DNA from: a virus
IMG/VR virus record: IMGVR_UViG_3300050821_009114
Span: 1-50,701 of that record
Direction: 5' to 3' (one strand)
DNA length: 50,701 nucleotides
Part shown: piece by piece, positions 13,282 to 16,419 of the stretch
Layout of the letters: each line of letters opens with the position of its first letter
Numbering within the stretch: position 1 is the first letter of the stretch
Notes under the pieces: model-generated
The model's database searches: none
What the model was told of the DNA's origin: nothing
Seen by the model: only the letters and a program-made list of their open reading frames with translations
Made by a program: the position numbers and the translations under genes

Positions 13282-13301
13282 ACTTGGATGATTGGGGCAT
13301 T

Positions 13302-13329
13302 GCGCTTCACGCGATTGTGATCGAAGCGC
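13302..13329 (+). other. Leader hairpin of the early transcript
   Basis: GCGCTTC (13302-13308) and GAAGCGC (13323-13329) pair perfectly around a 14-base loop, starting about 15 bases into the predicted transcript. Likely a 5' stabilising structure or a control element; no T run follows. Confidence 0.5.
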
Positions 13330-13390
13330 CGCAATTTCGCCGCAATTGGAGCGCAGAATGCGGATCGGGCGATTGGGCCTGATAGGAGCT

Positions 13391-13609
13391 ATGCCGATGC
13401 GATACCCAAAGACACCGATACACATTGCGGATGATGGTTCAGTGCTAGCGTGGATATGGAATGGGCATGAGTATTACGAAAGCACTGTGAACGGCCAGCG
13501 GATACCGGTCTATAGATTGGGCAAGCCAAAGGCTGGGCAGTCACGCAACGGGAGACTATTGCGGATACCGCATAGGAGTGATTTCGTACAGCGTATGGAT
13601 CGAGCTTGA
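13391..13609 (+). CDS. First early protein, hypothetical
   Basis: 72 residues from ATG 13391, with AGGAG ending 3 bases before it; a second in-frame ATG at 13397 is equally well placed. The protein is basic (many Arg/Lys) with aromatic residues in a compact N-terminal half (VLAWIWNGHEYYEST). No family was recognised. As the first gene behind a consensus promoter it is a candidate host-takeover protein, by position only. Followed directly by a GCACaGTGC element. Confidence 0.65.
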   Translation: MPMRYPKTPIHIADDGSVLAWIWNGHEYYESTVNGQRIPVYRLGKPKAGQSRNGRLLRIPHRSDFVQRMDRA

Positions 13610-13640
13610 TTGCACAGTGCGTTTAACCATGCAAAGGGAG
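13610..13640 (+). repeat. Intercistronic GCACtGTGC element, copy A
   Basis: Starts right after the stop of the first early gene. GCACAGTGC (13612-13620) followed by GTTTAACCATGC shared exactly with copy B; TTGCA (13610) can also pair with TGCAA (13630-13634). The ribosome site AGGGAG of the next gene sits at its end. Confidence 0.75.
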
Positions 13641-13647
13641 ACTGTTC

Positions 13648-13854
13648 ATGATGCCGTATCAGATACAGCGCACACGCCTTGTAGAGGACGTTGAGAGTGA
13701 TGTGCGATATTATCGGTTTGATCTTATCAACACGGCGACGGATAAGGTCATTGCCCATGCGTTTAGCCGATCGCCAATTGCGCCATCACGGTTAAGGCAT
13801 AGGCTTGGGGAGTTGAACAGTCGGCATTTGCTGAATGAGTTGGCGATCTATTGA
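13648..13854 (+). CDS. Small early protein, hypothetical
   Basis: 68 residues; ATG 13648 or 13651 behind AGGGAG. It looks like a small alpha/beta protein with a charged N-terminal strand region (RLVEDVESDVRYYRFDL) and a C-terminal helix (SRLRHRLGELNSRHLLNEL). No Cys, no membrane segment. Flanked on both sides by copies of the GCACtGTGC element. Function unknown. Confidence 0.7.
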   Translation: MMPYQIQRTRLVEDVESDVRYYRFDLINTATDKVIAHAFSRSPIAPSRLRHRLGELNSRHLLNELAIY

Positions 13855-13855
13855 T

Positions 13856-13892
13856 TACACTGTGCGTTTAACCATGCCACGTAACGAGGGAG
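13856..13892 (+). repeat. Intercistronic GCACtGTGC element, copy B
   Basis: Begins 1 base after a stop codon. ACACTGTGC (13857-13865) then GTTTAACCATGC (as copy A) and the GAGGGAG ribosome site. Shares CACTGTGCGTTTAACCA (17 bases) with copy E at 15285. Confidence 0.75.
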
Positions 13893-13901
13893 ATCAATGC
13901 C

Positions 13902-14156
13902 ATGCTAACTCAATACACAAGTGCTGCGATCGAGAGTGAGGTGATGCGGATTGCGAGGAATGAGGTGAAGCTGATGATCCGGGCCAGCGGACAGAAGATT
14001 GGGTGTTTCAGGGCTGGGGAGATCACCAAGGCTTGTAAGGCTTTGGTAAAGGCAAAGCCTGAGCTATTGGTTGAGGCAGAGCGGAATCTTGCGGAGCGGG
14101 AAAAGGCCACTGAGAACGTGAATGTGAGCAAGACGCTGAGGAAGCTATTTGCATAA
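13902..14156 (+). CDS. Early protein, paralogue of the 226-residue protein
   Basis: 84 residues. ATG 13902 lies 9 bases after GAGGGAG. The core matches the C-terminal half of the protein at 14604-15284: EVMRIARNEVKLMIRASGQK here and EALRIIKNVVKDQVRSSGQK there, followed in both by an A-x-E-x-x-x-A-x-K-A helix and a terminal SK-x-L-x-x-LF. So this is a stand-alone version of a shared helical domain; its basic surface would suit nucleic-acid binding, which is inference. The stop codon abuts hammerhead 1. Confidence 0.75.
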   Translation: MLTQYTSAAIESEVMRIARNEVKLMIRASGQKIGCFRAGEITKACKALVKAKPELLVEAERNLAEREKATENVNVSKTLRKLFA

Positions 14157-14255
14157 GGCCGAAACCTTGCACTGTGCGTCGCGCCCATGCATCGCGTAGC
14201 GCACACTGGATGTACGGTGCAAGGTCCAAGGGTGAAGCCCTTGCTGACGATGGCC
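14157..14255 (+). ncRNA. Type II hammerhead ribozyme, copy 1
   Basis: In order: stem II 5' strand GGCC (14157-14160); core GAAA (14161-14164); stem III CCTTGCAC (14165-14172) with GTGCAAGG (14217-14224), the arm between them folding further (TGTGCG with CGCACA); cleavage triplet GTC with the cut after C14226; stem I CAAGGG (14227-14232), loop TGAAG, CCCTTG (14238-14243); core CTGACGA (14244-14250); one extra T (14251); stem II 3' strand GGCC (14252-14255). All invariant core bases of the hammerhead family are present. The extra T and the 4-bp stem II are off-consensus. It starts immediately after a stop codon on the transcribed strand. Confidence 0.82.
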
Positions 14256-14269
14256 ATAGGGAGAGGAAG

Positions 14270-14434
14270 ATGCAGATGAGCTTTACGAAAGCGATTGTGG
14301 AGTACTTTGGGAAGAAGCCGGGTCAATCCACCGGGGAGTTTATGCAGGAGATCAAGAACCTGACGCCGGAGGATCGGTTGTACTTCAAACAAGAGTTTGC
14401 GAAAGTTGGGATTGAGATCATTCAGGCGATCTAA
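14270..14434 (+). CDS. 54-residue early protein lying between two ribozymes
   Basis: ATG 14270 (or 14276) behind GGGAGAGGAAG. The product begins MQMSFTKAIVEYFGKKPGQS and continues with two amphipathic helices (GEFMQEIKNLTPEDRLYFKQ, EFAKVGIEIIQ). Similar short proteins (KAV-EYFGKKPGQ...LTPEDR) occur in many proteobacterial phages without an assigned role. If both hammerheads cut, the coding sequence sits on a 258-nt RNA starting with a 5' hairpin and ending inside hammerhead 2. Well supported as a gene by its start signal and codon pattern. Confidence 0.85.
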   Translation: MQMSFTKAIVEYFGKKPGQSTGEFMQEIKNLTPEDRLYFKQEFAKVGIEIIQAI

Positions 14435-14436
14435 AA

Positions 14437-14513
14437 GGCCGAAAGCCTTGCACTGTGCATCTGGTATGCGCCCTTGCAAGGCTCAGGGAGTAAGGCTCCC
14501 TCTGACGATGGCC
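14437..14513 (+). ncRNA. Type II hammerhead ribozyme, copy 2
   Basis: Same order as copy 1: GGCC (14437-14440); GAAA (14441-14444); stem III GCCTTGCA (14445-14452) with TGCAAGGC (14475-14482), capped by GTGCAT/ATGCGC; CTC triplet with the cut after C14484; stem I AGGGAG (14485-14490), loop TAAGG, CTCCCT (14496-14501); CTGACGA (14502-14508); extra T (14509); GGCC (14510-14513). Stems I and III differ from copy 1 in sequence yet remain fully paired, so the two copies show compensatory change, while core residues are unchanged. It begins two bases after a stop codon. Confidence 0.82.
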
Positions 14514-14603
14514 ATAGAGGACGGCTAGGTGGGCTAGGCCCATACGCGACAGTCCTAGTGCGAGGATCAGAACCATAGACGTGTAGCATAAGGAAGTGCA
14601 CAC

Positions 14604-15284
14604 ATGACTGACGTAACGGTTGAACAAGACGAAGGCGATGTGGTCATTGAGTTTTCACTCAAAGGCGACAGCGGCCAGCGGAAGGTGAATTGGTCCCAGC
14701 TTAGTGATGAGGTTAAGATCAAGCTTGCGCAGCTTGCGCTTGAGACCATCACGGCGAAGGCCAACGGTGCGGTGAAGGCCATTGCCGGCGTCACCAAGCT
14801 GGAGGGTAAGGCTCTGGAAGACCGACAGGCCGAGATCAGGAAGGCTGCGGATGCTACCATCAAGCAACTTGAAGATGGGGTTTATCCGGGTGCCAAGAAG
14901 GTCAAGGTCAGCGGCGCAGTCCAGACTGAAGCCTTGCGGATTATCAAGAATGTGGTCAAAGACCAAGTCCGCAGTTCCGGGCAGAAGGTTGGCGCGTATA
15001 CTGCCAAGGAGTACACCGCGGCTGCGAAGGCGATCTTCGAGCAGCAGAGTGCACGATATCTAGCACTTGCCCAAAAGGCACTGGATGAACGTGCTGCTGA
15101 TGCGAAGGGACAGACTTCGAAGAGCCTCGTTGATCTCTTCGGCGAGAAGGCCAACTCCGAGGAAGTCAAGGCAAAGCCAAAGGTTGCCCCGAAGCGGAAG
15201 GAGAAGGGTGCGCCCCTCTCTGCGAAGCAGGCGGGTATGGCTGCGCCGAGGCAGAAGCCGGGAACACAGCACACAGCGCATTAG
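14604..15284 (+). CDS. Early protein with duplicated helical domain, hypothetical
   Basis: 226 residues; ATG 14604 follows AAGGAAG by about 8 bases. N-terminal acidic strand region (VEQDEGDVVIEFSLKGDSG), then helices; residues about 105-180 are homologous to the 84-residue protein at 13902, ending SKSLVDLFGEK; the C-terminus is a Lys/Arg/Pro-rich tail (KVAPKRKEKGAPL). The tail and basic domain fit a DNA- or RNA-associated protein. The gap of about 90 bases after hammerhead 2 holds only a GGGC-TAG-GCCC hairpin. No enzymatic motif seen. Confidence 0.8.
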   Translation: MTDVTVEQDEGDVVIEFSLKGDSGQRKVNWSQLSDEVKIKLAQLALETITAKANGAVKAIAGVTKLEGKALEDRQAEIRKAADATIKQLEDGVYPGAKKVKVSGAVQTEALRIIKNVVKDQVRSSGQKVGAYTAKEYTAAAKAIFEQQSARYLALAQKALDERAADAKGQTSKSLVDLFGEKANSEEVKAKPKVAPKRKEKGAPLSAKQAGMAAPRQKPGTQHTAH

Positions 15285-15305
15285 GTTGCACTGTGCGTTT
15301 AACCA
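15285..15305 (+). repeat. Intercistronic GCACtGTGC element, copy E
   Basis: Directly after a stop codon: GCACTGTGC (15288-15296) and GTTTAACCA as in copies A and B. Copies C and D are inside the hammerheads (14169-14177 and 14450-14458). Downstream, two 16-base near repeats GTGAGCAATGrGCACG lie at 15315-15330 and 15395-15410. Confidence 0.7.
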
Positions 15306-15401
15306 GTATCCTGTGTGAGCAATGGGCACGCTGTGAAGCCAGAGAAGCCTAGGATCAGCAGGTGAGGAACACGGGACCAGTAGTCCCAAACAGGGTGAGC
15401 A

Positions 15402-15527
15402 ATGAGCACGACAGCGAGGGCCATGGAGCGACCATTAGCCCTCGCCTCCCAACAAGCTCAGGATCACCCTGATCTTTTCAAGCGATGGAAGAGTAAGTCC
15501 AATCGAAAGGAACCATGCTATGACTGA
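15402..15527 (+). CDS. Possible 41-residue small ORF
   Basis: ATG 15402 behind a GGTGAG site; the frame ends inside the start of the next gene. The product begins MSTTARAMERPLALASQQAQ and ends in a basic stretch. The start region is one of two near-identical repeats (GTGAGCAATGrGCACG), the other of which opens only a four-codon frame. Otherwise 15306-15519 holds no gene. Weakly supported. Confidence 0.3.
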   Translation: MSTTARAMERPLALASQQAQDHPDLFKRWKSKSNRKEPCYD

Positions 15528-16419
15528 ACACGGACATAATTTCATCCGCGAGATTGCGGAGGCGTATCGCGCCCTCGAAATGGAACCGCAATATCAGTCC
15601 CAGATCAAGGACTGGGAACGGATCAACAAACGCGATGGCGATGCGATAGCTCGACTAGAGCTTCGCCTGATGGAGATGAGCCAAGAGCATGATGCACTCA
15701 AGGCAAAGCTCCGCTCGGTGGAGGCCGAGCGGGATGAGGCCGGGTTTCGCCAGTTGGAAGCTGAGGACACAACGAACAATCTGCTCACGACTCTCCGCAG
15801 CGTGCAGGCTAGTGTTGGGTCGGCTATAGCTGCGGCGACGGCATCGGGTAAGGATCAAACGGTGATGATGTCTGTTGATGAAATGGACGGATTTGCAAAC
15901 TACAAGGCCGAGCTACAGCGCAAGCATGAGGAGAACATTGCCAAGGCCGAGGCAGTGCGATTGGGCATCGAAGCTGCGGAGAAACAGCGACAGGCCGACG
16001 AAGCCGCACGCACTGCCAGCGAAGCGGCAAGCCAAGCTCCGGGGACTTGGACGCTCGAAACGATGGACCTAGAGCCAAAGGCTGAGGGTAGCGTGCCAGC
16101 GGACCCTACTCTGGTCCAAGAGCCAGTGACTTCTACTACGACCACGACAGAGGACGTTATATCAAGCTCTGAGAGCGGGGAGGTCTCTCAATCTCTCCCT
16201 ACTGCAACAGTGGACACCACGCAATCGCAGACTGCATCGTCCACTACTGTCGAGCCCACGCAGTCTGTTGCCTCGCCCGCTTCGCAGCCTAGTGGCCAAT
16301 ACTCCGGCAAGCGATACTACGAATGGCCATACTACGTCTCGCTGACAGGCTGGCTCGCCCAAGGCGGAACGGAAGACGACTACAACTGGCGGCCGGAAGG
16401 CTTAGCCTCTGCTCGTTGA
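15520..16419 (+). CDS. Coiled-coil protein with Ser/Thr-rich linker
   Basis: 299 residues; AGGA lies 6-10 bases before ATG 15520. Residues about 1-180 are helical and coiled-coil (MEMSQEHDALKAKLRSVEAE, AELQRKHEENIAKAEAV), about 195-265 a low-complexity Thr/Ser/Glu/Gln linker, and about 268-299 an aromatic end (KRYYEWPYYVSLTGWLAQGG). The layout suggests a scaffold or tether that presents a small C-terminal binding motif. No family was recognised. Last gene of the P1 operon, 9 bases before a strong terminator. Confidence 0.8.
   Translation: MTEHGHNFIREIAEAYRALEMEPQYQSQIKDWERINKRDGDAIARLELRLMEMSQEHDALKAKLRSVEAERDEAGFRQLEAEDTTNNLLTTLRSVQASVGSAIAAATASGKDQTVMMSVDEMDGFANYKAELQRKHEENIAKAEAVRLGIEAAEKQRQADEAARTASEAASQAPGTWTLETMDLEPKAEGSVPADPTLVQEPVTSTTTTTEDVISSSESGEVSQSLPTATVDTTQSQTASSTTVEPTQSVASPASQPSGQYSGKRYYEWPYYVSLTGWLAQGGTEDDYNWRPEGLASAR

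Follow-up and report, generated by a model that had tools for sequence, protein, structure and literature searches.

The locus at 14157-14513 raises the question of whether two similar elements on either side of a 54-aa phage gene are type II hammerhead ribozymes and, if so, what they may do for the RNA that carries them. The window, which here means the whole stretch of DNA analysed, is the 50,701-nt IMG/VR virus record IMGVR_UViG_3300050821_009114, and all coordinates refer to it unless another record is named. The agreement of the core, its circular order, the covariation of the stems, the position and an orthologue in a related phage supports the assignment of both elements as type II hammerheads, for which cleavage is predicted at the sites below.

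14157-14255, + strand: HHR1, type II hammerhead (by core, fold and covariance-model match)
14157-14160/14252-14255, + strand: stem II of HHR1
14226/14227, + strand: predicted cut of HHR1
14437-14513, + strand: HHR2, type II hammerhead (by core, fold and covariance-model match)
14437-14440/14510-14513, + strand: stem II of HHR2
14484/14485, + strand: predicted cut of HHR2

HHR1 reads GGCC-GAAA, stem III (CCTTGCAC with GTGCAAGG), TC, stem I (CAAGGG with CCCTTG), CTGACGA, T and GGCC; HHR2 reads GGCC-GAAA, stem III (GCCTTGCA with TGCAAGGC), TC, stem I (AGGGAG with CTCCCT), CTGACGA, T and GGCC. The type II core is present in both, with CUGACGA, GAAA, UC at the cut and A-U as the pair A15.1-U16.1. 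In the folds and in the covariance model all three stems are paired, stems I and III being closed by loops and stem II being open, and stem I of both copies, with the conserved U.G pair that closes it counted in, has 7 bp and a loop of 3 nt. The three-way hammerhead is the MFE as well as the centroid fold of each element (z -3.1 for HHR1 and -3.4 for HHR2), and no dinucleotide shuffle was as stable as the native sequence (0/200 for each). HHR1 directly adjoins the stop codon TAA at 14154-14156, and HHR2 follows TAA at 14432-14434 after two bases. The earlier note on this DNA was thus right in its main points: two type II hammerheads (core in circular order, three-stem folds, and E about 1e-11 with the model R1 described below), a position right after stop codons, the same cut coordinates, and stems I and III that are fully paired though different between the copies, a compensatory change around the core that is seen in the sequence, the folds and the covariation.

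The Rfam Hammerhead_II search that the note had proposed as a check gave a negative answer. At the gathering thresholds there was no match to any Rfam family anywhere in the window, and at E 10 the region 14100-14620 returned nothing related to hammerheads, just a chance microRNA match within the elements; HHR1 and HHR2 therefore stay below the 37-bit gathering cut-off of RF02276 (Hammerhead_II), with no window match even at E 10. This result reflects the limit of the model and not of the elements, because canonical T-less relatives are also rejected and RF02276 describes a subtype with a 2-bp stem II. The phage contig L057 carries six textbook T-less copies; the best score of RF02276 there was 29.7 bits, and at the gathering threshold it found no match in L057 and 14 other loci, most of which carry clear copies. 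RF02276 is thus the wrong yardstick for these elements. For an independent model, IMG/VR was scanned for GGCCGAAA..CTGANGA(T)GGCC with free spacers, and candidates with pairing stems were retained; the covariance model R1 was then made from 20 equal-length elements, all from other phages, with the window excluded from training. These outside elements have 99.7% of their pair cells paired and 79 cells changed on both sides, and their covariation score is 0.654 vs 0.117 when shuffled and at most 0.120 when slid. In the 120 kb searched, R1 gave HHR2 55.8 bits (E 9.2e-12), HHR1 52.6 bits (E 6.3e-11) and the orthologue in L181 50.9 bits, and the next best match after these elements had E 3 within the window and E 1.1 across the 120 kb. 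With filters off, the two window elements were matched partially, at 27.4 and 23.6 bits, and were still the two best by far; the lower scores probably arise because their stem III exceeds the length limit of the model.

The two elements enclose one gene, and the surrounding features are as follows.

13902-14156, + strand: 84-aa gene ending directly at HHR1
14270-14434, + strand: 54-aa gene between the ribozymes (ATG at 14270 after GGGAGAGGAAG; TAA at 14432-14434)
14514-14585, + strand: structured leader RNA of the 226-aa gene, directly 3' of HHR2 (by covariation)
14518-14522/14552-14556 and 14529-14533/14539-14543, + strand: helices P1 and P2 of the leader RNA
14604-15284, + strand: 226-aa gene downstream of HHR2

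The 54-aa protein matches phrog_9674, of unknown function, weakly, and its gene has homologues in L181, L329 (the same locus as L098), L330 (the same as L127), L327, L328 and L331-L333. Hammerheads lie on both sides of it also in L098/L329 (52% protein identity) and in L127/L330 (42%), and the L098 cassette combines an upstream copy with the extra U and a downstream copy without it. In L181 (contig IMGVR_UViG_3300012362_000047), a hammerhead at 1397-1450 between the 54-aa and 226-aa genes is the orthologue of HHR2; it has no extra U, its stem III (GGGGCT/AGCCCC) is wholly unlike those of the window copies, and a counterpart of HHR1 is absent. Among HHR1, HHR2 and the L181 element, most of stem III and many bases of stem I differ with the pairing kept, and the changes in stems I and III of the seven cassette elements are compensated, with a covariation score of 0.706 vs 0.164 for the shuffled control. 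Homologous genes occur at places without a recognised hammerhead in L182-L184, L327, L328 and L331-L333, so the ribozymes are not indispensable, a point against the processing role proposed below. Stem III of HHR1 is long and structured (14165-14224, 60 nt), as it is in the upstream copy of L330 (about 83 nt) and not in L098; this long arm of the upstream ribozyme might bind a protein or a ligand.

The genes flanking the cassette are themselves related: the 84-aa protein and residues 103-180 of the 226-aa one are paralogous (39% over 79 aa, E 1e-13), which suggests a local duplication. The 226-aa protein has a 58% relative in L181, and the leader RNA occurs in the same place upstream of its gene homologue in four sequences (the window, L181, L329 and L328), in which 10/10 pairs are always paired and 6 are changed on both sides; it has no Rfam match. 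L328 carries this leader RNA without a recognised hammerhead. The + strand block of 13.6-27.8 kb encodes a family A DNA polymerase, a uracil-DNA glycosylase/exonuclease domain protein, a primase-like gene, a Sak4-like protein and a PD-(D/E)XK nuclease, and the structural genes are on the opposite strand, so the term "early operon" is reasonable but unproven. We found no sigma-70-like promoter in 13300-15600. The phage is unclassified and has no close cultured relatives; its terminase is 42% identical to that of Pseudomonas phage UFJF_PfDIW6, and its DNA polymerase 36% to that of Caulobacter phage Kuura.

The relatives of the two elements make up a catalogue of at least 252 unique viral elements, in which the stems and GGCC were partly imposed by the search patterns and the filtering script. 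Among those listed, stem II has an A on its 5' side in 250/252, and where stem-loop I is 17 nt long (216 elements), loop position 7 is invariably U. The position after stop codons is also general, as 219/245 listed elements start no more than 25 nt after the stop of an upstream ORF, vs 15% at random positions, and a start codon with a ribosome-binding-site-like sequence (searched over at most 120 nt) mostly lies 14-34 nt downstream. In multi-copy loci we found 26 extra copies with another stem II, whose strands covary (GGTC/GACC, GCCC/GGGC, GACC/GGTC and more); the conservation of GGCC is therefore partly a matter of ascertainment, and we do not claim it as universal. A pseudoknot between loop I and the tail, which was sought as well, has no 4-bp complement in HHR1 or HHR2 and is not above chance across the class (24/215 vs 26.3 in shuffles). 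Taken together, these elements appear to form a phage subclass with a 4-bp stem II (often GGCC), a 7-bp stem I, a 3-nt loop of U-N-A type, an optional U and no pseudoknot. In a pattern scan of bacterial and archaeal genome contigs, 0 of the 118 stretches listed passed the stem test; R1 found nothing in 299 genomes of one phylum, which is weak evidence of absence, as few candidates were scored per genome. With the window locus as query, annotated phages gave no nucleotide match, and phage PaP3, whose hammerhead has been published, lacks any member of this 4-bp-stem-II class.

Two further remarks of the earlier note fared less well. It had called a tandem pair unusual, but the text of PMC3088659 (Perreault et al. 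2011) describes clusters, and many of the contigs listed here have 2-8 copies, with up to 8 in one piece; L342, a 67.6-kb phage contig, packs seven pattern matches into a single piece of 8.5 kb, which is the densest array among the matches listed. It had also regarded the extra T before stem II as a deviation from the consensus, which is correct insofar as T14251 in HHR1 and T14509 in HHR2 stand between A9 and stem II, where the usual spacing has no nucleotide between A9 and the pair 10.1-11.1 (this is not a catalytic base). The T is, however, not peculiar to these two copies, since it recurs in more than 100 listed phage elements. Among the 252 unique phage elements in the matches listed, an insertion is present in 113 and absent in 139 (counts that are not readable as relative frequencies), and the inserted base is T in 112/113. 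T-bearing and T-less copies stand side by side in ten loci. We treated the extra U as a variant feature because the text of PMC3088659 files natural hammerheads with core insertions as variants, and it is a recurrent and base-specific one.

Another feature of some relatives is a tail N'TCAG after stem II, which 74/252 listed members have and in which N' is always complementary to the core base N7 (C7-G in 58, T7-A in 15, A7-T in 1, mismatches in 0). The carriers include T-bearing (L067, L095, L112, L122) and T-less (L057, L075) elements; HHR1 and HHR2 have ATAG there instead. Pairing of CUGANG with CN'UCAG would make a 6-bp hairpin engulfing the catalytic core, and its predicted median probability vs that of stem II is 0.88 vs 0.11 in the full RNA and 0.996 in the cut 3' product. 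Such a tail could serve as a post-cleavage lock or as a kinetic off-switch.

As to function, what we observed directly is the sequence, structure, covariation and orthology of the elements and their placement between stop and start codons. A cut at such a place would separate the genes of one transcript and leave a hairpin on both new ends. We consider it quite likely that the two elements are cis-acting type II hammerheads that process the early polycistronic RNA co-transcriptionally, with a hairpin at the end of each product. Each ribozyme would fold once the 3' strand of its stem II emerges during transcription and would cut after C17, between two closed hairpins. The stem III hairpin, bearing a 2',3'-cyclic phosphate, would then form the 3' end of the upstream product. 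The downstream product would have the stem I hairpin at its very start, with a 5'-OH, and its own ribosome-binding site after that. Cutting at both sites would yield the following RNA.

14227-14484, + strand: predicted RNA of 258 nt carrying the 54-aa gene only (from the two cut sites)

The genes for the 84-aa and 54-aa proteins and those further downstream would thereby come to lie on separate RNAs with hairpin-capped ends, whose stability and translation could be set independently. Cleavage, its co-transcriptional timing and the stabilisation of the products by terminal hairpins are what we infer from the sequence; the idea of processing comes from the text of PMC3088659, and the end-capping role of the hairpins is our own suggestion.

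Other readings of the pair have to be weighed against processing by active ribozymes. The inserted U might break the core, so that these would be decayed hammerheads which now act without cleavage as intergenic hairpins or mRNA-end stabilisers. The U does sit at the junction within the core, some of the hammerhead variants that have insertions there are only weakly active (according to the text of PMC3088659, insertions at A6a and on the C3 side can lower activity), and the orthologous site in L181 has a T-less copy. Decay, however, would not give U in 112 of the 113 insertions among the matches listed, the T-bearing copies keep all catalytic bases and all stems under compensatory change, and the two forms coexist in ten loci, so that we regard decay as unlikely. 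That the elements are ordinary intergenic hairpins or terminators which resemble a hammerhead by chance is hardly credible. A short motif by itself is not rare, and the pattern CTGANGANGGCC with one mismatch allowed was no rarer than the chance expectation; but R1 matches with E about 1e-11, the L181 orthologue and the conserved cassette speak against coincidence, and terminator calling found none at the HHR1 and HHR2 sites. The R1 E-values and the covariation in the 20 outside and the seven cassette elements refute this reading in effect.

In a more elaborate scheme, the pair excises 14227-14484. The ends of this RNA would come together again as a hybrid hammerhead, made of the 5' half of HHR2 and the 3' half of HHR1, and either the ribozyme or the RtcB of the host would seal them, which would give the 54-aa protein a circular mRNA. 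If true, the pair would be an excision-circularisation device yielding circular phage mRNA. Both half-ribozymes are indeed on the 258-nt RNA, and in its predicted fold, a nicked hammerhead, GGCC is paired to GGCC with a probability of 0.99. Nevertheless, neighbours with differing stem II are cross-compatible in 11/29 cases vs a shuffled mean of 15.5, and the L330 cassette is incompatible, with GACC facing GGCC. Perreault et al., according to the text of PMC3088659, also found neither circular nor spliced products when they sought them. We therefore consider circularisation quite improbable.

Processing of the transcript by two hammerheads also has support from known systems. As reported in the text of PMC3088659, clustered hammerheads flank single genes in prophages, three tandem arrangements cleaved in vitro, that of A. 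tumefaciens also cleaved in E. coli, and long phage transcripts were proposed to be processed to single-gene mRNAs. A review of the field (PMC6155905) calls it an open question what hammerheads do in prokaryotes and phages. The kind (since 2011), tandem clusters and a viral early-gene hammerhead (HF1/HF2) are already known. The type II hammerheads of Perreault et al. and RF02276 share with the window copies the core, the circular order, the open stem II, the phage intergenic setting and the clustering around single genes. They differ in that RF02276 has a stem II of 2 bp and the window class one of 4 bp (mostly GGCC), in that the type II consensus of PMC3088659 has the loop I/tail pseudoknot for which the window class gives no signal, and in the U-N-A type loop I and the extra U before stem II of the latter. 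The haloviruses HF1/HF2 (PMC3088659, text) have a hammerhead 13 nt upstream of the early helicase gene and a mapped transcript 5' end no more than 3 nt from where it would be cut, which resembles the window in the early transcript and the short distance to the start; their hammerhead differs in a core insertion near C3, an occurrence in hypersaline settings only and the lack of a pair around one gene. The U-bearing, pseudoknot-free subclass with a 4-bp stem II and the conserved cassette were not found in the open literature or the text of PMC3088659, the figures or supplement of which may list members. What appears to be new is a ribozyme-gene-ribozyme cassette that two divergent phages share, the changes in its stems being compensated, plus a T-less HHR2 orthologue in a third phage. 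R1 also identified members in cultured phages, at 46.6-60 bits, none of them annotated as a ribozyme.

MH576962, 146472-146527 and 146783-146838, - strand: members in Streptomyces phage Satis
PP183292, 56946-57012: member in Burkholderia phage Bm1
NC_009015, 5575-5647: member in Burkholderia phage BcepF1

Satis resembles the window in having a pair around one small gene, whereas in all three phages the neighbouring genes encode other hypothetical proteins. With members in cultured Streptomyces and Burkholderia phages, removal of a ribozyme and mapping of RNA ends during infection become practical. The window and its relatives define a phage subclass overlooked by Rfam, with an orthologous ribozyme-gene-ribozyme cassette.
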